Positions 29,412 through 40,973 of a stretch of 61,950 bases of DNA are shown here, in pieces. The position numbers and the translations under genes were made by a program. Numbering within the stretch: the first letter of the stretch is position 1; the number at the start of each line of letters is the position of its first letter. The notes beneath the pieces are model-generated. The model searched no databases. It saw only the letters and a list, made by a program, of their open reading frames with translations, and was not told the DNA's origin. The DNA comes from Fibrobacterota bacterium (lineage in GTDB: Bacteria; Fibrobacterota; Fibrobacteria; UBA11236), in NCBI GenBank assembly GCA_028287465.1, contig JAQBPO010000017.1, positions 1 to 61,950 on the forward strand, read 5' to 3'.

Positions 29412-30209
29412 ATGGGAATCAGAATCTTAATCCTTTTTTTGCTACTGGGAATAATGCAAGTGGTCGCGAAGCCGGAACCGTATTCTTGCGGAGAAAAGAA
29501 GATGGTCAAGCGACCCTATGGTAGAGTGGAGGTCCGAGTCGATTGCGAATTGACCGAGGGTCGGATGTGGGTTGCGGAATTCAAGGGGGAAGTTTTGAAT
29601 GGATTCTCGCAGGAATTTATTCGAGCTACAGGGAAGCGTCACGATAGCTGTTTCTATGTGAATGGAATCGAAACCGGCAGAAGTTTAGTATGGGACTCTT
29701 CAGGGAATATCCTTACCGAAGCGTTTTCAAAGGATGGACACAACATCGGCAAGTTCACTTCCTTTTTCCGGCCTGGAGTTCCTGCGGCCTTCCGAAATTA
29801 CGACTCATCCGGACGTCTGGAAGGTAGGCAACAAGAGTGGTGGAAGAACGGCCAGCCCAAATCCGATCTGATGTCCAAGAACGGCCAGATCATTTCCGGG
29901 ACCGAATATTATCCGGACGGCAAGCCGCGCATCCGATACGCTTCCGTGTACGACCCCAAGCGGACCGTATTCGGCACCAAGACCATCGAATCCGAAAGCT
30001 GGGCGCCGGATGGCCGGTTCGCAGGCAAGGTGGAGAAGGGGCAGGGCGAACAGCTGCTGTTCCATGCGGAACCGAAGAAAGGCTCCATCGCCGCGCATCG
30101 GGAAATCTATAAGGACAGTCTCATGACCCATCTCGATGAGTTCGATTCCGCCGCGGTGGAAAAGTGGCTGAAGGAACATGCGAAGCCTGTGAAACCCCCC
30201 GTAAAATAG
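29412..30209 (+). CDS. Exported YwqK/MORN-like protein, putative immunity factor
   Basis: A 265-residue protein starting at ATG 29412, one base after the stop of the effector-like gene, with GGAG eight bases upstream. A signal peptide (GIRILILFLLLGIMQVVA) predicts periplasmic location. The mature part carries MORN-like YwqK repeats: GRLEGRQQEWWKNGQPKSDL, then NGQIISGTEYYPDGKPRIRY, then SWAPDGRFAGKVEKGQGEQL. YwqK-family proteins are the antitoxins of several toxin pairs. Position right behind an effector-like gene supports an immunity role acting in the periplasm, but this is inferred. The first 350 bases are noticeably poorer in GC than the flanks, which suggests transfer. Confidence 0.7.
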   Translation: MGIRILILFLLLGIMQVVAKPEPYSCGEKKMVKRPYGRVEVRVDCELTEGRMWVAEFKGEVLNGFSQEFIRATGKRHDSCFYVNGIETGRSLVWDSSGNILTEAFSKDGHNIGKFTSFFRPGVPAAFRNYDSSGRLEGRQQEWWKNGQPKSDLMSKNGQIISGTEYYPDGKPRIRYASVYDPKRTVFGTKTIESESWAPDGRFAGKVEKGQGEQLLFHAEPKKGSIAAHREIYKDSLMTHLDEFDSAAVEKWLKEHAKPVKPPVK

Positions 30210-30231
30210 GTCTATCCAATACCAGACCCTC

Positions 30232-30301
30232 ATACCCTACAGGGTATATTGACAGAATATCCCCTGTAGGGTATAATAATGGAATATACCCTACAGGGGA
30301 T
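30232..30301 (+). promoter_or_regulatory. Three phased HipB operators over the hipBA promoter
   Basis: Three 16-base sites, ATACCCTACAGGGTAT (30232-30247), its inverted form ATCCCCTGTAGGGTAT (30259-30274) and ATACCCTACAGGGGAT (30286-30301), start exactly 27 bases apart. They lie upstream of the -35, across the spacer and -10, and over the ribosome site. HipB dimers are expected to bind here and repress the operon. Confidence 0.85.
30249..30277 (+). promoter_or_regulatory. Consensus sigma-70 promoter of hipBA
   Basis: TTGACA (30249-30254), a 17-base spacer and TATAAT (30272-30277): a perfect consensus. Transcription should start near 30284, about 24 bases before the hipB ATG. Such a strong promoter fits tight repression by the three operators. 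Confidence 0.88.
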
Positions 30302-30307
30302 GGAAAC

Positions 30308-30562
30308 ATGGAATACCCGATACTGACCACCCGGCAATTGGCCCAATCCCTGAAGGGATGGCGTAAGAGCCTCGACTTGACCCAAAGCGAAGCCGCGGGC
30401 CGGGTGGGGATGCAACCCAAGACCATTTCCGCCCTTGAGTCCGACCCGGATAAGAGCGCCTTGGGAAGCCTCTTCAAGCTGCTCTCGGCCTTGGATCTGG
30501 AACTGGTCATCCGGCCCAAGTCCAAAGGGGCCGCCGGAAAGGCCGCCACGGGGGAGTGGTGA
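30308..30562 (+). CDS. hipB: HipB-like antitoxin, XRE-family repressor
   Basis: An 84-residue DNA-binding protein. ATG 30308 is chosen since AGGGGA (30295-30300) precedes it and the promoter lies just upstream; an upstream in-frame start would cover the promoter. The helix-turn-helix spans about residues 10-60 (LAQSLKGWRKSLDLTQSEAA, then VGMQPKTISALE) followed by a dimer segment (SLFKLLSALDLELVIRPKS). It should neutralise HipA and repress the operon through the three sites in front. The stop is three bases before hipA, the usual order and spacing. Confidence 0.9.
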   Translation: MEYPILTTRQLAQSLKGWRKSLDLTQSEAAGRVGMQPKTISALESDPDKSALGSLFKLLSALDLELVIRPKSKGAAGKAATGEW

Positions 30563-30565
30563 ATC

Positions 30566-31900
30566 ATGGGAAGGCCCGCTAAAACCAGGCGTCTCGACGT
30601 GTGGATGAACGGGGAATTGGCGGGCGGCTGGACCATCACCGCATCCGGTGATCATGTCTTCTCCTACGATCCGGCCTGGCCCGATTCGAAATTCGCGCGG
30701 CCGATTTCGATTTCAATGCCGCTCCGCTCTTCCAATACACCCTACCGCGGGCCCGCCGTCGAAGCCTTTTTCGATAACCTGATTCCCGACAGCATGGAAA
30801 TCCGCAAACGTTTCCAATCCCGCTTCGGCACTCCCACCCCCAAGGCCTTCGATCTCTTGGCCGAAATGGGCCGGGATTGCGCGGGGGCTTTGCAACTCAT
30901 TCCGGCCGGGGAGGATCCCGGTAAGGTGATGAAGATTGAGTCCGTCCCCCAAAGGGAGGCCGAAGTGGCGGCGTCCCTCAGAGCGGCCTTATCGCCCCCG
31001 GGCTTGGGACAAACCGATCCGGATGATTTCCGCATTTCCCTGGCAGGCGCCCAGGAGAAAACGGCCTTCCTGAAGCTGAAGGGGAAATGGCATCGTCCGA
31101 AAGGAGCGACCCCGACGAGCCATATCTTCAAACTCCCCATGGGAAACCGCGTAGGTAGGGAGCAAATGGATTTGTCGACGTCGGTGGAAAACGAATGGCT
31201 TTGTTCCCGGATTGTCGACGCTTTCGGAATCCCGATGGCGAGCAGCGAAATGGCCAGCTTCGAAGACCAGCGGGTCCTGATCGTGGAGCGTTTCGACCGG
31301 CAATGGTCGGATGACAAATCCTGGCTGATCCGCCTTCCCCAGGAGGATATGTGCCAGGCCATGGGGGCTCCAATGGGCCGGAAATATGAGTCGGATGGGG
31401 CGCCCGGGATCCCCGGCATCCTGAATTTCCTGCTCGGGTCCCGCCAATCCCCCGCGGACAGGAGGATGTTCTTGAAGGCGCAGGTGCTCTTCTGGATGCT
31501 CTGCGCAATCGACGGCCATGCCAGGAACTTCAGCATCTTCATCGGGAGGGGAGGAGGATACAACCTGACGCCCTTGTACGATGTGCTCTCCGCTTTCCCG
31601 ATCCTGGGCCATGGCAAGAACAAGCTTCATCCGGAAAGGGCCAAGATGGCGATGTCGGTAAGGGGAGGAGGCAAACATTACCTGTGGGAGCGCATCACCC
31701 GGAAGCATTGGGTCGAAACCGCGCGAGTATGCGGCTTGGAGATGGAGATCGAAGGAGTCCTTTCGGAGTTGATTGAAAGGGCGAAGCCGACGGCCGAAAG
31801 GGTTGCAGCGGCGCTTCCCTCCGGATTTCCATCCTCGGTGGCCGACCCGATACTTTCGGGCCTGAAAAAGTCCGCTCATCGTCTTGGACAAAAATCCTGA
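30566..31900 (+). CDS. hipA: HipA-like toxin, serine/threonine kinase
   Basis: A 444-residue HipA-family kinase. An N-terminal HipA_N domain (residues 1-105, with VEAFFDNLIPDS) precedes the kinase domain. The nucleotide region is marked by ISLAGAQEKTA and SHIFKLP, the hinge region by IVERFDR, the catalytic loop by AIDGHARNFSIF, and the metal Asp by LTPLYDVLSA, so all key residues are present. In known systems HipA phosphorylates glutamyl-tRNA synthetase or other tRNA synthetases and stops growth; the target here is unknown. Length is normal for the family. It is co-transcribed with hipB and ends 13 bases from a convergent gene, with no obvious terminator between them. Confidence 0.9.
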   Translation: MGRPAKTRRLDVWMNGELAGGWTITASGDHVFSYDPAWPDSKFARPISISMPLRSSNTPYRGPAVEAFFDNLIPDSMEIRKRFQSRFGTPTPKAFDLLAEMGRDCAGALQLIPAGEDPGKVMKIESVPQREAEVAASLRAALSPPGLGQTDPDDFRISLAGAQEKTAFLKLKGKWHRPKGATPTSHIFKLPMGNRVGREQMDLSTSVENEWLCSRIVDAFGIPMASSEMASFEDQRVLIVERFDRQWSDDKSWLIRLPQEDMCQAMGAPMGRKYESDGAPGIPGILNFLLGSRQSPADRRMFLKAQVLFWMLCAIDGHARNFSIFIGRGGGYNLTPLYDVLSAFPILGHGKNKLHPERAKMAMSVRGGGKHYLWERITRKHWVETARVCGLEMEIEGVLSELIERAKPTAERVAAALPSGFPSSVADPILSGLKKSAHRLGQKS

Positions 31901-31913
31901 GGTCGGATCGGCT

Positions 31914-34886
31914 TCAGCGGCCTCCGTTCGTCCCCGCCGTCAAGGCATCCACCCTTTTCCGGGCCACGGCCAGCAGCCCTTCGTCCGCGGAACCGGTTTC
32001 CAATACGCGCCGGTACAGGGGCAGGGCATCTTCCCACGCCCCGGCCTGATCGTACAGGGACGCCATCGCCAACAGGGCTTGCGGTTCCTCGCCTCCTGCC
32101 GAAGCCAGACGCCTGCGCAGCCCCTCGAATTGGGCGGCCACGCAGGCCCGCCGCGTCTCCGCAGGCTCGAAAAGAGCGAAGTCCGATACCGAGTAGGAGC
32201 CGCAGTATCCGGCCACCAGGGCATGGTAACGCGCGCGTTGCCCCTCATCCGCGCGCGCCAGATCGACCATCCCCGGAAAGGGCCGGAACACGGACAGGGC
32301 GTAAGCGGCGAAATCGATCTGGCCGTCCACGTTCCGATCGGTAGCGCCGGCCAGGGCCCTTAGGCGCGGGGAGAGCCTGGCCCCGGCACGGATGCGGCCG
32401 CGGATATCGCCGCCGCCGTCCACGTAGATGAGGCGCGGGGCCGCGAACTCCAACAGGGGCCGGTCGTCGGTATGGATGGGGCCGTCCCCGAACAGGCCGG
32501 CGAGGTCGTCGGATTCGATGAGGCGGAAAATCACGTCCGCGCCGGGCAGATCCACGTTGCGGGAACGTTTCGCATGGGCGAGGTTGCGGTTGACCGCCTC
32601 TCGATCGGGCCGGCCTTCGCCATTGCAGCCCACGAGCAGGTAGTCGCTTTCGGGTCCCGATCCCGGCCCGGCGCCCGGCAGGGTGCGCACCAGCATGGCA
32701 TGGGGAAAGGCCCGCGAGAAGGTGCGCCCCACCATGGAAAAGGTCTCCCAATCCATCTGGTAGGAATGCAGGAACTGCACGAAAAGCCCGTCCGGGTTGA
32801 GGCGGGCGCGGGCGGTGCGGAAGAAATCCAGGGAATAGAGTTCCGCCAGGCCGGCCATCCAGGGATTGGACGGCTCGGAGATGATCACATCGTAGCGCTT
32901 GTCCGTGAGGGTCAGGTGCGCCTTGCCGTCCTCGAGGATGAGCCGCGTGCGCGGGTCCCCCATCACCCCGTTGTTCCAGCGCTCGAAGAAGCGGCTGGCC
33001 CCGACCACCTGGCGGTTGATCTCGAGGATGTCCAGGCCATCGACCGGGTAATGGAGGACCTCGCCTGCGGTGATGCCGCTCGCCAGGCCCAGCACCATTA
33101 CGGATCGGGCCGAGGGGTGGAAGAGCATGGGGAAATGCGCGCACAGGGCCTGGGTGAACATGTCGGCCTGGGCGGAAGCGTCCGCCTTCCCGGAGTTGAA
33201 CAGGGTGAAGTCCTCGTCGCCCAGGGGTCCGGTGGTTTTCCAGACGGTGGTAAACCCGCCTATCCCGTCCCCGTAGAACACCTCCTCCCCGCCGGACGGG
33301 CCGGCGGCGAAATGCCGGGGCCGGAACAACGCTTCGAGCCAGCCGTAACGCAGAAGGGACGGGGAGGCGTCGTAATAGGCGGAACGGGAAAGGCCCAGGC
33401 GATCCCAGCGCGGGAGCATGCAGGCCAATGCCAAGGCCCCGATGGCTCCCGTTGCGGCGAGGATCAATCCGCCGGAAACGGGAAGCGGCCGGGATCCGGC
33501 CCGGAACCGCATGGCGGCGGCGGCCAGGGCGAGCGCGCCCAGGGCCTGCATTCCCGCGATCAGGGACAGGCCGCCTTCCTTGCCCAGCCAAGGGATGAGC
33601 AGGAAGCCCGCGCCCAGGGACCCGAGCACGCCTCCGGCGGTATTGGCGGCATAGGCCCGCCCCACGAAACGGCCGGCGCCGCCGCCGGGACGGAAGCCCA
33701 GGCGCACCATGAGCGGGAAGGCCGCGCCCAGGGCCATGGCGGGCGGGAACATGAACAGGGAGAGGGCGGCGGCTTCCCAGGCGCGGCCGATCCAGAAGCC
33801 GTGGCGGAAGGTCACCGCCAGCTTGGAAAAGAAGACGGGGCTGTTGCCGAGCAGTTGGCTTGAACCGAGGATCAGGAGGGCGGCCCCGGCCTGGGTCGCC
33901 GCGAACAAGGCCCAGACTCCGCCCCCGGGATCCCCTTGGTCCTCCCGGTCCGCGCGATCGGCCAACCTGCCGAAGGCGAGATTGCCGAGCGCCAGCCCCA
34001 GGATGAAGGTGCAGAGCACCAAGGTGAAGGCATAGGGGGTGGGACCGAGCACCAGTCCCAGCAGGCGCGTCCAGATGACTTCGCAGGCCATGGCGCAGAA
34101 GCCGGACAAGGCGAATACCGAAAGGGCCAGGGCGGCGAAGCGGCCGCGCAGGAGGGGGCGGTGCACGGTCGGCTCCTCCGCCGGCAAGGCCATTCCGCCC
34201 TGGGTAACTTCCACGGTACCCAACCGATCCGTTTCCTGCACGGCCGGGATCGCGCCTGCTTCCGACTTGACGGGCCGGCCCGACTTCGCCAGGCACAGAA
34301 TCCCGATGGACCCGTTGATCGCGGCCGCCAAAAGCGAAGTGCCCCGCAGACCCAGGGTTTCCAAGGCCCAGAAGCCGCTGACGAGCGCTCCCACGGACGC
34401 TCCGACGGTATTCAGCCCGTACAGCAGGCCCAGGCGCGCGGTCCAATGCCCGCCTTCCCAGGTGATGCGCCTCCCCAGTACGGGCAGGGTCGCGCCCATG
34501 CAAAGTACGGGCGGCAGCAGGAGCAGGCCGCAGAGGACGAAGAGCATGGCGTTATAGGCGATGGGTTCCCCGTAGTACCGCCGATAGAGCTGGGCGCAGA
34601 CCGGGACCAGTTCCGCAAGCAACCAGGGGAGGAAAAGGGCGTAGATGCCGATGCCCGTTTCCAGGAGGCCGTATACGCGCAGGAGGCCGGCGGGACCGGA
34701 CTGGCGGTCCGCGATGCGACCGCCCAATAGGGCGCCCAGGCCCAATCCTCCCATGAATACCGCCAGCACCAGGCTCACGGCGTAGGGAGCGGCGCCGATG
34801 AGATGGCCCAACATGCGGGTCCACAGGACCTCGTAGACGAGGCCGGTGAGACCGGACAGGAAGAAGCAGAAGTGGATCCAGGCCAT
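31914..34886 (-). CDS. Fused MFS-like / spermidine-synthase-like membrane protein
   Basis: A 990-residue protein starting at ATG 34886 after GGGGAGGG. Two related membrane halves (about 1-210 and 240-500) each start with a similar block: VYEVLWTRMLGHLIGAAPYA and ACEVIWTRLLGLVLGPTPYA, an internal duplication. Residues about 560-800 are a spermidine-synthase-type Rossmann domain: VMVLGLASGITAGEVL, the acidic LDILEIN and the catalytic-region ISEPSNPWMAG. A TPR-like helical tail closes the chain (LLAMASLYDQAGAWEDAL). Fused proteins of this kind are common in environmental bacteria; true polyamine synthesis is unproven for them. It is monocistronic, convergent with hipA. Confidence 0.85.
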   Translation of the reverse strand: MAWIHFCFFLSGLTGLVYEVLWTRMLGHLIGAAPYAVSLVLAVFMGGLGLGALLGGRIADRQSGPAGLLRVYGLLETGIGIYALFLPWLLAELVPVCAQLYRRYYGEPIAYNAMLFVLCGLLLLPPVLCMGATLPVLGRRITWEGGHWTARLGLLYGLNTVGASVGALVSGFWALETLGLRGTSLLAAAINGSIGILCLAKSGRPVKSEAGAIPAVQETDRLGTVEVTQGGMALPAEEPTVHRPLLRGRFAALALSVFALSGFCAMACEVIWTRLLGLVLGPTPYAFTLVLCTFILGLALGNLAFGRLADRADREDQGDPGGGVWALFAATQAGAALLILGSSQLLGNSPVFFSKLAVTFRHGFWIGRAWEAAALSLFMFPPAMALGAAFPLMVRLGFRPGGGAGRFVGRAYAANTAGGVLGSLGAGFLLIPWLGKEGGLSLIAGMQALGALALAAAAMRFRAGSRPLPVSGGLILAATGAIGALALACMLPRWDRLGLSRSAYYDASPSLLRYGWLEALFRPRHFAAGPSGGEEVFYGDGIGGFTTVWKTTGPLGDEDFTLFNSGKADASAQADMFTQALCAHFPMLFHPSARSVMVLGLASGITAGEVLHYPVDGLDILEINRQVVGASRFFERWNNGVMGDPRTRLILEDGKAHLTLTDKRYDVIISEPSNPWMAGLAELYSLDFFRTARARLNPDGLFVQFLHSYQMDWETFSMVGRTFSRAFPHAMLVRTLPGAGPGSGPESDYLLVGCNGEGRPDREAVNRNLAHAKRSRNVDLPGADVIFRLIESDDLAGLFGDGPIHTDDRPLLEFAAPRLIYVDGGGDIRGRIRAGARLSPRLRALAGATDRNVDGQIDFAAYALSVFRPFPGMVDLARADEGQRARYHALVAGYCGSYSVSDFALFEPAETRRACVAAQFEGLRRRLASAGGEEPQALLAMASLYDQAGAWEDALPLYRRVLETGSADEGLLAVARKRVDALTAGTNGGR

Positions 34887-35112: not shown

Positions 35113-35943
35113 CTACAGGGCCGGGGTGAGGACCCCGTGCTTGCGCAGGAAGGTTTCGGATGCCTCCAGGGCGGGACCGTAGGCGTCCTTGAAGGGATAG
35201 AGGTCCGGGGTATAATCGCCCCGGTAGCCGATATCATGCAGAGCCTGGAAGATGGCCGCGAAATCCACGTCCCCGTCCCCGTACAGATGGTGCCGGTGCA
35301 CCCGGCCCTTGATGTCCTCCAGGTGGACGTTCCGCAGCAGCGGTCCCAGGGCCCGGATGGCCGCGGCGATGTCCTCGCCCACCACCTCGCTATGGCCCAC
35401 GTCGAAATTGGCGTACACCTCGCCCGGAAAGGCGCGGCCGAGGGACAGGAGCTGGGCGGCGGAGTTGATCACGTGTTCCGGCTCCTGCTCGATGAGGATC
35501 TTGAGGGATCGCGGCTTGCGCCTCACGATTTCCGCCAGGGCGCCCCGGAAGGCCTGTTCCTGGGCCGCGCGCCCGGGCTCCGATTCCGTGAGGCCGGTGG
35601 TGAGGGTGAGGTGCGGGCAGCCCAGGGCCTTTGCGATCACCATGCTTTTGACGGTGGCTTCGATACGGACCGACCGTTCCGCGGGGGCGAGCGAGGAAAG
35701 CCCGGGACGATGGGCGTCCGGGCCCAACAGGTGCGGAGCGCCCAGGTGCACGTTGCGGAAGGCGAGGCCGCGCTTCATGAAGGAGTCCCTCAGATCCTCC
35801 CAATGGCGCGTATCGTCCGCGCGCGCGAGCATGGGCGCGGTGACCACGAGCTCCACGCCGGTAAAGGGCGTGGGAGCGAGGATGTCGGCGATTTCGGCGA
35901 AGGGGATTCCGTCCGGCAGGGAGCCGGTGCTATAACAAAGCAT
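35113..35943 (-). CDS. TIM-barrel sugar phosphate isomerase/epimerase-like protein
   Basis: A 276-residue xylose-isomerase-like (AP2Ec) TIM barrel. Metal-ligand-type residues are visible in KILIEQEPEHV, ANFDVGHSEVV, VHLEDIKGRVHRHHLYGDGD and the closing YTPDLYPFKD. ATG 35943 overlaps the end of the eboD-like gene by 14 bases, so the two are translationally coupled. This gene is not one of the six standard ebo genes as I know them; it may take the place of the missing TatD-type EboB or add a separate step. The substrate is unknown. Family assignment is strong; the role in this cluster is inferred from position. Confidence 0.82.
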   Translation of the reverse strand: MLCYSTGSLPDGIPFAEIADILAPTPFTGVELVVTAPMLARADDTRHWEDLRDSFMKRGLAFRNVHLGAPHLLGPDAHRPGLSSLAPAERSVRIEATVKSMVIAKALGCPHLTLTTGLTESEPGRAAQEQAFRGALAEIVRRKPRSLKILIEQEPEHVINSAAQLLSLGRAFPGEVYANFDVGHSEVVGEDIAAAIRALGPLLRNVHLEDIKGRVHRHHLYGDGDVDFAAIFQALHDIGYRGDYTPDLYPFKDAYGPALEASETFLRKHGVLTPAL

Positions 35944-37120
35944 CCCAGTACTCGAGCAGGACCTTGTTGAGCTGGAATTCGCAGACCGGCGTGAGCACGG
36001 ATTCGTTCTGCGCGGGAGAGACGCCCCGGGCGTCCTGGGGCATGTTGACTTGGCCCACCGCCTTCATCAGGATGAAGGCCATGCCCTTGCCGACCTTCTT
36101 GTTGTCCCGCTGGACGCTGGTGAGGATCTGCCCCACCGAGATGTCGTTGGGGATGGGCGGGATGCCGCGCAGGCGGCTGAGGAGCAGGGATTGCTTTTTG
36201 AGTTCTTCCACGGGCATGATGCCCAGGTGGTGGGCGAGCTGGCCCGCCACGTTCATGCCGTGGTACACGGCCTCGCCGTGCAGGAGGCGTCCCTGGGACA
36301 GCCATTCCAGGGCATGGCCCACGGTATGGCCGTATTCCAGCATCAGCCCGAGGGACTTCTCCTTCGGGTCCAGGCGCGCGATCTCGAATTTCTGGGCCAG
36401 GCTGTTCACCAGCAGGCGCTCGAGCTGGGCCTCGGAAAAGGTCTCCTTGACGGAGAAGAAGCGCAAGGCCTCCTCGTAATGGGCGCCGCCCAGGAGGATG
36501 GCGTTCTTGCAGTATTCGACCGCGGCGGCGCGCAGGTGGCGCAGGGGTTCGGTGGCGCAGTAGCGGGAATCGGCCAAGGCCGCGACCGGCGTGCTGAATA
36601 CGCCCAGGCGGTTCTTGCCGCCGGCGAAGTTGATGCCTTGCTTGTTGGAGACGATGACGTCGCTCTGGGCCATCAGGGTGGTGGGCACCTGGACGAAGCG
36701 GACGCCTCGATAGACCAGGGACGCGGCCAGGCCGCCTATGTTCAGGACCACGCCGCCGCCGAAGTTCACCACCACCGAGGATTTGGTGATGCCGCGCTCG
36801 AAGAGCTGGTTGCAGAGGAATTCCAGGTTGGACATCTTCTTCTCGCCCTCGCCTTCGGCGATGAGCAGGATTTCCGGCGCGAAATGGGGGGACAGAAGCT
36901 GGAGCAGGGATGCGCCGTGCAGGGAGAAGACATGCTGGTCGGAAAGGATGAAGACCCGATCGGGCTTGAGTCCCAGGAGCAGATCGGGCAGCAGGTCGAT
37001 GGCTCCCTTGCCGAAGTGGATGGGCATGCCGCCGGTGAGCGGCGAGTTCCAGGTGAGGACCGGGGACGCCGATGGCATGTTGCCGGTCACGGCGGGGTCC
37101 TGCATTTTCATGTTACCCAA
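35930..37120 (-). CDS. eboD: EboD-like sugar phosphate cyclase (3-dehydroquinate synthase family)
   Basis: A 396-residue NAD-dependent sugar phosphate cyclase homolog. Visible motifs: NAD-binding VVVNFGGGVVLNIGG, VPTTLMAQSD (the PTTLLAQVDS site), the metal His in LEYGHTVGHALEW, and HGEAVYHGM. Starts at TTG 37120 with GGGGG eight bases upstream; ATG 37111 is an alternative. EboD proteins of this family sit in ebo clusters that serve export or trafficking of aromatic or indole metabolites in cyanobacteria and other bacteria. The presence of EboE, EboF and EboC homologs on the divergent transcript is what assigns this cyclase to Ebo rather than to the shikimate pathway. Confidence 0.85.
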   Translation of the reverse strand: MGNMKMQDPAVTGNMPSASPVLTWNSPLTGGMPIHFGKGAIDLLPDLLLGLKPDRVFILSDQHVFSLHGASLLQLLSPHFAPEILLIAEGEGEKKMSNLEFLCNQLFERGITKSSVVVNFGGGVVLNIGGLAASLVYRGVRFVQVPTTLMAQSDVIVSNKQGINFAGGKNRLGVFSTPVAALADSRYCATEPLRHLRAAAVEYCKNAILLGGAHYEEALRFFSVKETFSEAQLERLLVNSLAQKFEIARLDPKEKSLGLMLEYGHTVGHALEWLSQGRLLHGEAVYHGMNVAGQLAHHLGIMPVEELKKQSLLLSRLRGIPPIPNDISVGQILTSVQRDNKKVGKGMAFILMKAVGQVNMPQDARGVSPAQNESVLTPVCEFQLNKVLLEYWDALL

Positions 37121-37356
37121 GGTCTATTCCCCCCTACCGATGGCCCTGCCGCAATCACCCCGTTCGCCTCCTAATGGCGGGAACCTTTCGATTCCAAGGG
37201 AAATCCGCACGTTTGGTTTACTAAATTAATCTAATCCGGGGGCCGGACTTTGGGATCCGGATCTTTGGCCGTCCGCCCCTTCGGCGGGGTCAAGGCGGCT
37301 TGCCCCTTTGGATTCGGTTTTCTTTGCGGTCTTGGCCGATCGGAAGGCTATAAAAC
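37121..37356. promoter_or_regulatory. Divergent promoter region of the ebo-like cluster
   Basis: A 236-base space between two divergent transcripts. An AT-rich stretch near 37213-37236 (TTTGGTTTACTAAATTAATC) is the likely promoter core. A short stem CCGCC-CCTTC-GGCGG lies downstream toward eboE. No exact operator was recognised. Confidence 0.4.
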
Positions 37357-38574
37357 TTGAAAAACCTCGGCTTGACCTATTGCACCAATGTGCATCCGCT
37401 GGGGGAATGGGCCTCCTGGAGCGACCTCATCGGGCGCTTCGGCCCCGCCATCCGGGCCGAACTCGGATGGAAAAGCCTGCCCATGGGGCTCTGGTTCCCC
37501 GCCTCCCTCATAGAGGAGCTGAACCGGGATCCGGTGGGCGGACGCCAACGCCTGCAGTCCCTCATGGCCGATAACCGGCTTTCGGCCTTCACCTGCAATG
37601 CCTTCCCCTACGGTAACTTCCATGACAAGGTGGTCAAGACCAAGGTCTACCATCCCGATTGGACCACGCCTGAGCGCCTGGCCTATACGGTAGCCTGCGC
37701 GCGCCTGCTCGCCATCCTGTCCCAGGAGGGCACGGATGGATCGGTGTCCACCCTGCCCCTGGGCTGGCGCATCGGCTGGAGCGAGGAGCATTCCCGGAAA
37801 AGCGCCGAGAACCTGTGCGCCTTCGTGCGGGAGGCGCGGGCCATAGAGGATATGGAAGGGCGGATGATCCGCCTGGGCCTGGAGCCGGAACCCGGCTGCG
37901 TCCTGGAAACCATCGATCAGGTGCTTTCGTTCTGGGGCATGCATCTGCGTCCCGCGGCCCAACGCGCGGGCATCGCTCCCGCGGATCTGGAGAACCACCT
38001 GGGCATCTGCTACGATACCTGCCATCAGGCCATCCAATACGAGGACCCGGAGGACGTGCTCGATCGCCTGAAGGCGAACGGCATCCGCGTGGTCAAGATG
38101 CAATTGTCCAGCGGCCTGGTCTTCAAGCCGGATCCGGAACGGACGTCCCTGGGCCTGCGGCGGCAATTCGTGGAGGAGCGGTTCCTCCACCAGACGAGGG
38201 TGAAGACGCCCTCCGGCATCGTTTCCTTCGACGATCTTCCGGAAGCCCTGGCGGCGGCCGAGGGAGCCGCGCAAGGCGTAGACTTGTGGGCCCATCCCTG
38301 GCGCGTGCATTTCCACCTGCCCATCGATTCCCGCAACCTGTTGGAATCCGAATCCATCGGCACCACCCGGGACGATATGCTCAAGGCCTACCGGTACGCC
38401 GTGGCCAAGCGCCTGTGCAGCCATTTCGAGGTGGAGACCTATACCTGGAGCGTGCTGCCGGAAGCCCATCGCCCCAAGGACGACGCCGAGCTGGCCCATT
38501 CCATCGCCCGGGAGATCCGTTTCATCGAGGCGCATACCCCGGCCGGAAGCACGATAAAGGATGCCGATGCATAA
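37357..38574 (+). CDS. eboE: EboE-like metabolite traffic TIM-barrel protein
   Basis: A 405-residue EboE homolog. It starts at TTG 37357 with GGAAGG nine bases upstream. Hallmarks of the family are plain: LTYCTNVHPLGEW at the N-terminus, CNAFPYGNFHDKVVKTKVY, GSVSTLPLGWRIGW, LGICYDTCHQAIQYEDPED, KMQLSSGLVF, VHFHLPIDSRNLL and HFEVETYTWSVLPE. The fold is a sugar-isomerase-like TIM barrel; the reaction is not known. In described ebo clusters it is needed for moving a metabolite precursor to the periplasm. First gene of the rightward ebo transcript; its end overlaps the eboF start by eight bases. Confidence 0.9.
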   Translation: MKNLGLTYCTNVHPLGEWASWSDLIGRFGPAIRAELGWKSLPMGLWFPASLIEELNRDPVGGRQRLQSLMADNRLSAFTCNAFPYGNFHDKVVKTKVYHPDWTTPERLAYTVACARLLAILSQEGTDGSVSTLPLGWRIGWSEEHSRKSAENLCAFVREARAIEDMEGRMIRLGLEPEPGCVLETIDQVLSFWGMHLRPAAQRAGIAPADLENHLGICYDTCHQAIQYEDPEDVLDRLKANGIRVVKMQLSSGLVFKPDPERTSLGLRRQFVEERFLHQTRVKTPSGIVSFDDLPEALAAAEGAAQGVDLWAHPWRVHFHLPIDSRNLLESESIGTTRDDMLKAYRYAVAKRLCSHFEVETYTWSVLPEAHRPKDDAELAHSIAREIRFIEAHTPAGSTIKDADA

Positions 38575-39955
38575 GACCGTGGTCCTGAACGTCGTGGGGT
38601 TGACCCCGTCCCTGATCGGCCCGAGCACGCCCCGCATCCGCCGGTTCATGCAGGAAGGGTGGAGCGCCCGGCTCCAGGAGCAATTCCCCGCGGTCACCTG
38701 CACCAGCCAGGCCGCCATGCTGACCGGGACCCCGCCCTCGGGGAACGGCATCGTCGCCAACGGCTGGTATTTCCGGGACCTGGCCGAGGTGGGATTCTGG
38801 AAGCAGAACAACGCCCTGGTCCAAGGCGAGAAGATTTTCGAGAAGCTGAAACGCGAGCAGCCGGGCTTCACCTGCGCCAAGCTGTTCTGGTGGTACAACA
38901 TGTACGCGGACGCGGATTGGACCGTGACGCCCCGGCCGCAGTATCCCGCCGACGGCCGGAAGATCTTCGACGTCTACACCCAGCCCGCCGAGATCCACGA
39001 TTACCTGGTCAAGGACCTGGGCCCCTTCCCCTTCTTCCAGTTCTGGGGCCCGGGTTCCGGCATCGAATCCTCCCGATGGATCGCCGAAAGCGCCAAATGG
39101 ATCTTCGAACGCAAGCGTCCGACCCTGAGCCTGGTCTACCTGCCGCACCTGGACTACGGCCTGCAGCGCTTCGGGCCCGGCGCCCCGGAGATCCGCAAGG
39201 AACTGGAGGCCATCGATACCGTGGTAGGCGACCTGATCGAATATTACCGCGAACGCCAGGTCCGCATCATGATCGTCTCGGAATACGGTATCTCCAAGGT
39301 TACCCGGCATACCCACCCCAACCGCATCCTGCGCCGGGCGGGCTTCCTGGAAGTGCGCCCCAGCCTGACCTGGGAGATGCTGGACGCCGGGGGCAGCGCC
39401 GCCTTCGCGGTCTCGGATCACCAGATCTGCCATATCTACGTGAAGGACAAGTCCCGCATCCCCGAGGTGGCGGCCCTGTTCGAGAAGGAACCGGGCCAGC
39501 GCGCCGTGCTCACGGGCGAGGCCATCGAGAAGGCCGGGCTCAAGCATGAGCGCAGCGGAGACGTGATCCTGATGGCCGAGCCGGACAATTGGTATACGTA
39601 TTACTACTGGGAGGACGACCGCAAGGCCCCGGACTTCGCCCGGTGCGTGGACATCCACCGCAAGCCCGGCTATGATCCCGTGGAACTTTTCGTCGACCCG
39701 GCCATCAAGAACATCAAGCTCAAGCTGGGCATGACCCTGCTCCGCAAGAAGCTGGGATTCCGCTATTACATGGACGTGATCCCGCTGACCCCGGAACTGG
39801 TGGGCGGCAGCCACGGCACTCCCGCGGGCAAGGCGGAAGAGGCCCCTCTCGTCATTTCCGATGTCATGCTCCTGAAGCCCGCTTCCGGCTCCATGCCCAT
39901 GACCGCGGTCCGGGATTTGATCGAGGCCCACGTCATGGCCGGGGACGCGGTTTGA
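38567..39955 (+). CDS. eboF: EboF-like alkaline phosphatase / nucleotide pyrophosphatase family protein
   Basis: A 462-residue member of the alkaline-phosphatase superfamily (type I phosphodiesterase/nucleotide pyrophosphatase). ATG 38567 is preferred over ATG 38561 because AAAGGA then sits about six bases upstream. The nucleophile region AVTCTSQAAMLTG has the Thr of the CTSQAA block, and metal-ligand motifs include YLPHLDYGLQRFGP, IVSEYGISKVTRHTH and a late GGSHGTP. These are the usual EboF features. No signal peptide is seen, so it acts in the cytoplasm unless exported otherwise. Phosphate-ester substrate is unknown. It ends by overlapping the eboC start (TTGA). Confidence 0.88.
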   Translation: MHKTVVLNVVGLTPSLIGPSTPRIRRFMQEGWSARLQEQFPAVTCTSQAAMLTGTPPSGNGIVANGWYFRDLAEVGFWKQNNALVQGEKIFEKLKREQPGFTCAKLFWWYNMYADADWTVTPRPQYPADGRKIFDVYTQPAEIHDYLVKDLGPFPFFQFWGPGSGIESSRWIAESAKWIFERKRPTLSLVYLPHLDYGLQRFGPGAPEIRKELEAIDTVVGDLIEYYRERQVRIMIVSEYGISKVTRHTHPNRILRRAGFLEVRPSLTWEMLDAGGSAAFAVSDHQICHIYVKDKSRIPEVAALFEKEPGQRAVLTGEAIEKAGLKHERSGDVILMAEPDNWYTYYYWEDDRKAPDFARCVDIHRKPGYDPVELFVDPAIKNIKLKLGMTLLRKKLGFRYYMDVIPLTPELVGGSHGTPAGKAEEAPLVISDVMLLKPASGSMPMTAVRDLIEAHVMAGDAV

Positions 39956-40842
39956 AGCCCCGCGCCTTCCTCGCCCTGGTCCGCATCCCGACCGTATTCA
40001 GTTCCATGTCCAACGCCTATGCCGGGTATTTCATCGGCGGCGGGCGCGATCTTTCGCCCAACCTGGTCGAAGGCATCCTGGCGGCCGCCCTGTTCATCAT
40101 GGCCGGCATGGCCCTGAACGACGTGGCCGACAAGGATGTGGACGCGCGGGAACGGCCCGGACGGCCCATCCCATCCGGCGCCGTCTCCCTGGGCTCGGCC
40201 TGGGGCCTTAGCCTGGGCATGATGGCCCTGGGCCTCGCCCTGCTCTGGTTCGCGAACCCGCTTTCGGTACTGGCGGGCGCGGCCCTGTGCCTGTGCATCC
40301 TGGCGTACAACTTCGCCTTGAAGGGGACCATTCTGGGGCCCGCGTCCATGGGCCTGTGCCGGGCCTTGAATCTGCTGACCGGCATGTCCCTGGGTTGGAC
40401 GTCCCTCCCCAATCCCGCCTCCTTCCCGAAGGGGGTCTGGATCGCGCTCTTTTCCCTGTGGGGCTATATCGCCCTGGTGACCTTCCTGGCGCGGGACGAA
40501 GTGGGCGGCAATTCGAAAACGCGTTCGCGTCTCTTCCTGGCCGGCATCGCCTTGTGGTTCATCGCCTGGTCGGTCGCGGCCTTCACCTGGTTCCGGCCGG
40601 AGATCTTCCTGCCCGTGGCCTGGCTGGCCCTGGCCATGTTCCTGCGCGGGCCCTTGCGCAACCTGGCGGCCGATCCTTCCCCCAAGCATACCGGACAGAT
40701 GGTGGGCGGCATGCTGCGCCTGGTGCCCCTGGTAGACGTGCTCACGATGCTGGCCAACCATGTGCCGCCGGAATACGCCCTGCCGGGCGTGCTATGGATC
40801 GCGCCCGCATTCGCGGTCGGAAAATGGTTTTACTCGACATAG
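39952..40842 (+). CDS. eboC: EboC-like UbiA-family prenyltransferase homolog
   Basis: A 296-residue integral membrane protein with about eight spans. It starts at TTG 39952, overlapping the eboF stop (TTGA). The UbiA Asp-rich motif is NDVADKDVDARERPGRPIPSG in the first loop; the second loop carries YNFALKGTILGPASMGLCRA and LLTGMSLGW, typical of EboC rather than UbiA proper. UbiA enzymes join prenyl chains to aromatic acceptors; EboC may bind or modify the trafficked metabolite in the membrane. Last gene of the rightward transcript; REP-like repeats begin at its very end. Confidence 0.88.
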   Translation: MKPRAFLALVRIPTVFSSMSNAYAGYFIGGGRDLSPNLVEGILAAALFIMAGMALNDVADKDVDARERPGRPIPSGAVSLGSAWGLSLGMMALGLALLWFANPLSVLAGAALCLCILAYNFALKGTILGPASMGLCRALNLLTGMSLGWTSLPNPASFPKGVWIALFSLWGYIALVTFLARDEVGGNSKTRSRLFLAGIALWFIAWSVAAFTWFRPEIFLPVAWLALAMFLRGPLRNLAADPSPKHTGQMVGGMLRLVPLVDVLTMLANHVPPEYALPGVLWIAPAFAVGKWFYST

Positions 40843-40973
40843 GCGCTTCGCTCCGGAGTTGCAAGGCAACTCCACGCTCAACGCATCTTATTGATTGATA
40901 GGCGCTTCGCTCCGGAGTTGCAAGGCGACGCCACGCTTAACGCATCTTATTGATTGATAGGCGCTTCGCCGCC
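40840..40973. repeat. Tandem 59-bp REP-like repeats
   Basis: Two full units starting at 40840 and 40899 and a third broken start at 40958 share TAGGCGCTTCGCTCCGGAG and end in CATCTTATTGATTGA. The first unit holds a perfect stem GGAGTTGC-AAG-GCAACTCC; the second has lost part of it. The element starts within the stop of eboC and fills the gap to the GNAT gene. It is related to the repeats at 42685-42894. Confidence 0.8.

Follow-up and report, generated by a model that had tools for sequence, protein, structure and literature searches.

A split ebo-type locus in Fibrobacterota with a putative DOIS-like cyclase and an isomerase at the EboD position

Described ebo clusters and the Fibrobacterota locus

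The ebo cluster, eboABCDEF, has been described in Bacteroidota, Cyanobacteria and eustigmatophyte plastids (PMC5133447, PMC6282210). In Nostoc, arrival of the scytonemin monomer in the periplasm depended on each of the five ebo genes tested (A, B, C, E and F), and the role of the cluster in export is known from these Nostoc mutants only (PMC6282210). An EboC from Flavobacteria is a farnesyltransferase in vitro (PMC9235831), and EboD was proposed to form a cyclitol from sedoheptulose 7-phosphate (PMC5133447). The substrate of 2-deoxy-scyllo-inosose synthase (DOIS) is glucose 6-phosphate (PMC6170601). A fusion of EboA with a TIM-barrel isomerase/epimerase (hereafter ISO) has already been noted in actinomycetes (PMC5133447).

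The window analysed here, a stretch of 61,950 nucleotides of contig JAQBPO010000017.1 (assembly GCA_028287465.1), originates from a soil or water bacterium of the phylum Fibrobacterota. Two of its genes are transcribed leftward: ISO (35113-35943, minus strand; 276 aa; PF01261, 88 bits) and, in the position of EboD, a DOIS-like sugar-phosphate cyclase (35930-37120, minus strand), whose 3' end overlaps the ISO start by 14 nt. An ATG located a few codons inside the annotated cyclase ORF may be its true start. A divergent intergenic region of 236 bp (37121-37356) separates, as judged from the sequence, this unit from a second one; scanned for promoters and terminators, the region gave no matches above chance. 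The rightward unit starts with eboE (37357-38574, plus strand, TTG start), coding for a TIM-barrel metabolite traffic protein, followed by an eboF-like gene of the type I phosphodiesterase/nucleotide pyrophosphatase type (38561-39955, plus strand, overlapping eboE by 14 nt) and an eboC-like gene for a UbiA prenyltransferase (39952-40842, plus strand, overlapping eboF by 4 nt). The five genes lie where an earlier note on this DNA had placed them, divergently arranged around the 236-bp gap. The translational coupling of isomerase to cyclase proposed in that note also held, the overlap being exactly 14 nt in 8/8 genomes of the host's family in which the contig reached that point (the window genome included). 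The divergent arrangement was conserved in every relative whose contig spanned the region.

Identification of EboE, likewise made in the earlier note, was confirmed by the curated model NF035939 (383.7 bits, cut-off 250), and a genome-wide search showed the gene to be present in a single copy. The EboF-like protein matched PF01663 (207 bits) and a profile of EboF proteins from other ebo clusters. For the EboC-like protein, the best NCBIfam models were those of EboC (NF035940, 137 bits, below the cut-off of 250) and SCO3242 (134 bits). Close homologues of this EboC were found in exactly those 11 of the 168 genomes of the phylum that encode EboE, and it is therefore regarded as a genuine part of the ebo system despite its score under the NF035940 cut-off. 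These 11 genomes were ten from the host's family, this genome included, and one from the same order, designated G154. Most genomes of the genus had EboC and EboF linked; in one genome (G156) the two were 8 kb apart on the same contig, and in the sister genus EboC was located elsewhere, away from EboF.

In comparison with the eboABCDEF cluster, EboA, EboB, EboC-like, EboE and EboF-like proteins were all encoded in the window genome, but the genes of this family were distributed over two or three loci, and a DOIS-like cyclase with ISO took the place of EboD. The earlier note had described the cluster as lacking eboA and eboB. They were indeed absent from the window, but a whole-genome search located both as an overlapping gene pair on contig C81. 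EboA scored about 155.6-159 bits against NF035938 (cut-off 50) and 245 bits, under the cut-off of 320, against the EboA_family model; EboB, directly downstream, belonged to the TatD family (63.4 bits). Reading of the translations placed msrA on one side of this pair and nuo genes further along. The pair was an isolated one and not part of the full ebo operon elsewhere that the earlier note had considered, and no operon of the window genome contained all six ebo genes. EboA was found in nine relatives within the family (9/10 relatives overall), in 9/9 cases on a contig differing from that of EboE, and these EboA loci carried EboB too. From the eboAB pair on C81 and the distribution of EboC, it follows that the system is complete here except for EboD, but dispersed, and that dispersal is an old trait of this family. 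Consequently the description as a split system, with eboAB on C81 and the other genes on C4, proved apt, and its description as a reduced one did not, since eboA and eboB both exist on another contig.

Kinship of the cyclase and of the ISO protein

The cyclase belongs to superfamily PF01761, of which two genes were found in the genome, this one and an AroB gene on contig C26. Among PDB entries, its best match was the DOIS BtrC (2d2x, 151.9 bits), ahead of dehydroquinate synthases (at most 141 bits). A search with a true EboD, from Maribacter, gave the opposite order, with dehydroquinate synthases first (151 bits) and BtrC last (81 bits). The best match by E-value among plasmid records was the DOIS of Sodalis (39.6% identity, 152 bits). 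A tree including EboD, sedoheptulose-phosphate cyclases, AroB and DOIS joined the window cyclase family to DOIS from Sodalis and Streptomyces and BtrC (support 100/99), whereas EboD proteins, that of G154 included, constituted a separate clade of 19 rows (100/100) with the window cyclase outside. The stem of the Fibrobacterota clade was however long (2.44 changes per column), and DOIS activity is therefore not to be assumed.

Active-site motifs led to the same assignment. The cyclase displayed SNKQ (SxKQ in DOIS), where AroB has GGKT and EboD has GVKN, and LEYGHTVGH (EYGHTxGH in DOIS), where AroB has NxGHT and EboD has RPLDFGHW. ExxKN and DNK were also as in DOIS, and the diagnostic Lys and Glu corresponded to K141 and E243 of BtrC. 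With 138 bits, the protein failed the EboD model NF004852 (cut-off 333), for which true EboDs scored 557.7 (Maribacter) and 526 (G154), the range among three EboD-type genomes being 519-558; a genome-wide search of ten members of the family and five ISO-type actinomycetes gave no protein above this cut-off. The AroB model TIGR01357 was failed as well (234.5 bits, cut-off 305). Hence tree, motifs and curated models ruled out the designation 'EboD-like' used in the earlier note, and an extra AroB was ruled out by the TIGR01357 score, the motifs and the presence of a separate AroB on C26; the earlier note had allowed for the case that the cyclase would score as an ordinary AroB. The cyclase groups with DOIS, not with EboD or AroB, a kinship from which its activity can be predicted only. 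BtrC, its closest solved relative, shares the diagnostic residues, but the window cyclase stands on a long separate branch, and its gene is coupled with ISO and ebo genes instead of aminocyclitol aminotransferases. An AlphaFold model of the cyclase had a mean pLDDT of 57 and was left out of the analysis.

The AlphaFold (AF2) model of ISO reached a mean pLDDT of 95.1, and its best fold match was the L-xylulose-5-phosphate 3-epimerase UlaE (PDB 3cqj; Z 30.2, 263 aligned residues, 22% identity). The subfamily differs from UlaE by invariant motifs of its own, ExEP, DxGH and HxH, and in the window family the fourth metal-ligand position is occupied by Asp, not Glu. With a profile built on Fibrobacterota ISOs, ebo-linked ISOs from Actinomycetota, haloarchaea and Gemmatirosa (Gemmatimonadota) scored 70-136 bits, whereas none of the unlinked PF01261 proteins, taken from the window genome and several ebo-bearing genomes, exceeded 31 bits. 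Reciprocally, an actinomycete profile gave 81 bits for the window ISO and at most 47 for unlinked proteins. By these profiles and motifs, ISO is assigned to a subfamily, defined here, whose members occur in EboD-less ebo-type clusters. The isomerase, seen in the earlier note as an extra gene, would thus be part of an EboD replacement module that recurs in other phyla.

Distribution of EboD, ISO and cyclase types among lineages

Among loci gathered by EboE similarity and plasmid searches, and hence unevenly sampled, EboD and ISO never occurred together (0 loci), 45 loci having EboD only and 38 having ISO only (33 after removal of duplicate records). These 33 distinct loci comprised 21 with a cyclase resembling inositol-phosphate synthase (MIPS-like, identified by PF07994 plus PF01658) and 8 with a DOIS-like one; of the other four, three were truncated by the end of the contig within the cluster, and the last was a haloarchaeal plasmid. 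MIPS and DOIS have unrelated folds, both cyclise a sugar phosphate, and the substrate of MIPS is also glucose 6-phosphate. MIPS was not found in Fibrobacterota genomes, which leaves the DOIS-like enzyme as the only candidate substitute for EboD there. No mention of an ebo cluster with MIPS or DOIS, or of one from archaea, turned up in the literature searched.

Actinomycete ebo operons (for instance L038 and L184) share with the window family the ISO subfamily, the A, B (TatD), C (an SCO3242 prenyltransferase), E and F families and the lack of EboD. They differ by a MIPS-like cyclase, an ISO either fused or adjacent to EboA, and a single-operon layout; downstream of one such operon lies a polyprenyl synthetase gene. 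In Gemmatirosa, ISO overlaps the stop of the MIPS-like gene by one base (TGATG). Haloarchaeal plasmids presented a UbiA gene flanked by two ISOs and adjoining TatD, with an EboF-like gene nearby (order F/MIPS/B/ISO/C/ISO), and MIPS-like genes in 3 of 4 plasmid records. EboE and EboA were both looked for in these haloarchaeal clusters and neither was detected, for which reason they may represent a sister system, not ebo proper.

A single origin of all ISO-type clusters was rejected by the EboB tree (p 6e-42), in which the EboB of the window family falls within Bacteroidota (99/97). This tree indicated at least four switches of type, and the branches of three of them were well supported (sign test, p 0.25). 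Mutual exclusion of EboD and ISO is thus a consistent pattern that falls statistically short of proof, because independent switches are few. In a quick tree, EboC appeared to go with cyclase type. Strict tracking did not hold: G154, a genome with a true EboD, has an EboC that nests with those of the window family, and a strict ISO-type clade was on this account rejected (p 9e-5). The EboC phylogeny gives a hint of pairing with cyclase type, to which G154 is an exception.

Candidate pathway and its alternatives

The most probable interpretation, which we favor with some reserve, is that the window contains most of a split, cyclase-swapped ebo system, in which a DOIS-like (elsewhere MIPS-like) cyclase and ISO would occupy the EboD slot, with a predicted cyclitol chemistry. 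The earlier note's suggestion of an alternative ebo system yielding another small molecule fits the evidence well, its chemical side being conditional on the predicted activities. The occupation of one slot by two unrelated enzyme superfamilies suggests that a cyclitol may be the core ebo intermediate, and we regard it as the strongest indirect sign to date of such a need. Cyclase and ISO would produce a six-membered carbocyclic polyol of the inosose/inositol type from a hexose 6-phosphate, this hexose-derived ring replacing the cyclitol that EboD was proposed to derive from sedoheptulose 7-phosphate. ISO may epimerise or isomerise either the hexose phosphate before ring closure or the keto-cyclitol after it. 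EboC would prenylate the ring, the hydrolases EboF and EboB would act on intermediates, in later or side steps, EboE would be a further TIM-barrel enzyme of a later or side step, and EboA a partner protein. The prenylated cyclitol could be, or lead toward, a lipid-bound carrier moving a metabolite to the periplasm.

Three other explanations were considered. An independent small pathway, for instance one for an aminocyclitol or another natural product, may be formed by cyclase and ISO beside the ebo genes and not feed them. Their location in a separate divergent transcription unit agrees with this, as does the fact that DOIS enzymes elsewhere work in aminocyclitol clusters. However, inspection of the adjoining ORFs revealed no recognisable aminotransferase or glycosyltransferase, the divergent layout was kept in all relatives with a spanning contig, ISO accompanies ebo genes in three other lineages, and the genome is devoid of any other EboD-like enzyme. 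This explanation appears unlikely. Even less plausible, in our opinion, is a shikimate-related function, with the cyclase as a second 3-dehydroquinate synthase providing extra flux, ISO as a 3-dehydroshikimate dehydratase-like enzyme and EboC prenylating an aromatic ring. A flavobacterial EboC does farnesylate an aromatic compound, 8-hydroxyquinoline-2-carboxylate, in vitro (PMC9235831), AsbF has the fold of ISO (rank 16), and the cyclase scores 234.5 bits against the AroB model. Yet the genome already possesses its own AroB on C26, the cyclase has, like DOIS, a Glu where the dehydroquinate synthase motif has Asn, and AsbF lies outside the best structural matches of ISO.

The remaining explanation, that the cyclase is a divergent EboD in an ordinary ebo operon merely broken up, with ISO as a hitch-hiker, is highly improbable. 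Membership of PF01761, the common neighborhood and the 138 bits obtained with NF004852 are in its favor, but the two enzymes fall into separate, strongly supported clades with differing active-site motifs, and the distance to the cut-off of 333 contrasts with the 526 bits reached by the EboD of G154 within the same order. Moreover, the ISO subfamily is found again beside non-EboD cyclases in other phyla.

A wider extension of the cyclase-swapped interpretation can be put forward only tentatively, and we hold it to be doubtful. In its terms, ebo would be a cyclitol pathway fed by at least three cyclases (EboD, DOIS-like and MIPS-like) from two superfamilies, with ISO required for the six-carbon route and EboC prenylating the cyclitol to give a previously unknown lipid carrier, used for transmembrane metabolite transport in bacteria and haloarchaea.

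The product of ebo has been sought since 2016, and the cluster is spread over many bacterial phyla and algal plastids. The interchange of unrelated cyclitol-forming enzymes in one slot points to a carbocyclic polyol as a need of the pathway. ISO would constitute a seventh ebo-associated gene family, the cyclase/ISO content would separate two chemical ebo subtypes in genomes, and clusters of the ebo type would extend to archaea. Cyclase and ISO are small and soluble, their candidate substrates are few, and the predicted chemistry should be directly assayable.

Surroundings of the window cluster

The stretch 30164-31900 holds a small gene for a helix-turn-helix protein and, after it, one for a HipA-like kinase; judged by eye, the two look like a hipBA toxin-antitoxin pair. 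The next gene (31914-34886), which adjoins that of ISO, the PF01261 TIM-barrel isomerase, encodes a 990-aa membrane protein whose C-terminal part appeared, also by eye, spermidine-synthase-like. At the other end, directly 3' of the eboC stop, a tandem repeat (40839-40969) was composed of two copies of a 59-bp unit (95% identity) and the 13-bp beginning of a third, and no further copies of this unit were found elsewhere within the window.

Related Fibrobacterota genomes

In G156, a relative from the window family, eboF and eboC were approximately 8 kb apart (L217:258-10728), and the genes 3' of eboC corresponded to those of the window; together, these two features of gene order suggest an insertion between eboF and eboC. 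G154, a genome of the same order with a true EboD, carried a HipA-like gene between eboD and eboE (L107:7214-8541). Its additional cyclase-superfamily gene (L214:8237-9439) scored 179 bits against the local EboD profile versus 90 against the DOIS-like profile, and was neighboured by nucleotidyltransferase-like and short-chain-dehydrogenase-like genes.

Haloarchaeal and actinomycete clusters

Haloarchaeal plasmids (L185, L186, L187 and L188) hosted an ebo-type cluster of EboF-like, MIPS-like (inositol-phosphate-synthase-like cyclase), TatD, ISO, UbiA and ISO genes, in which no EboE was detected; no description of this plasmid cluster was found in the literature searched. Catellatospora bangladeshensis possessed, in addition to its ebo operon (L038), a second cluster (L171) comprising C, ISO-EboA and B genes. 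In the L038 operon, eboF was immediately followed downstream by a polyprenyl synthetase gene (L038:11470-12780; PF00348, 150 bits), whose product may provide the prenyl donor.
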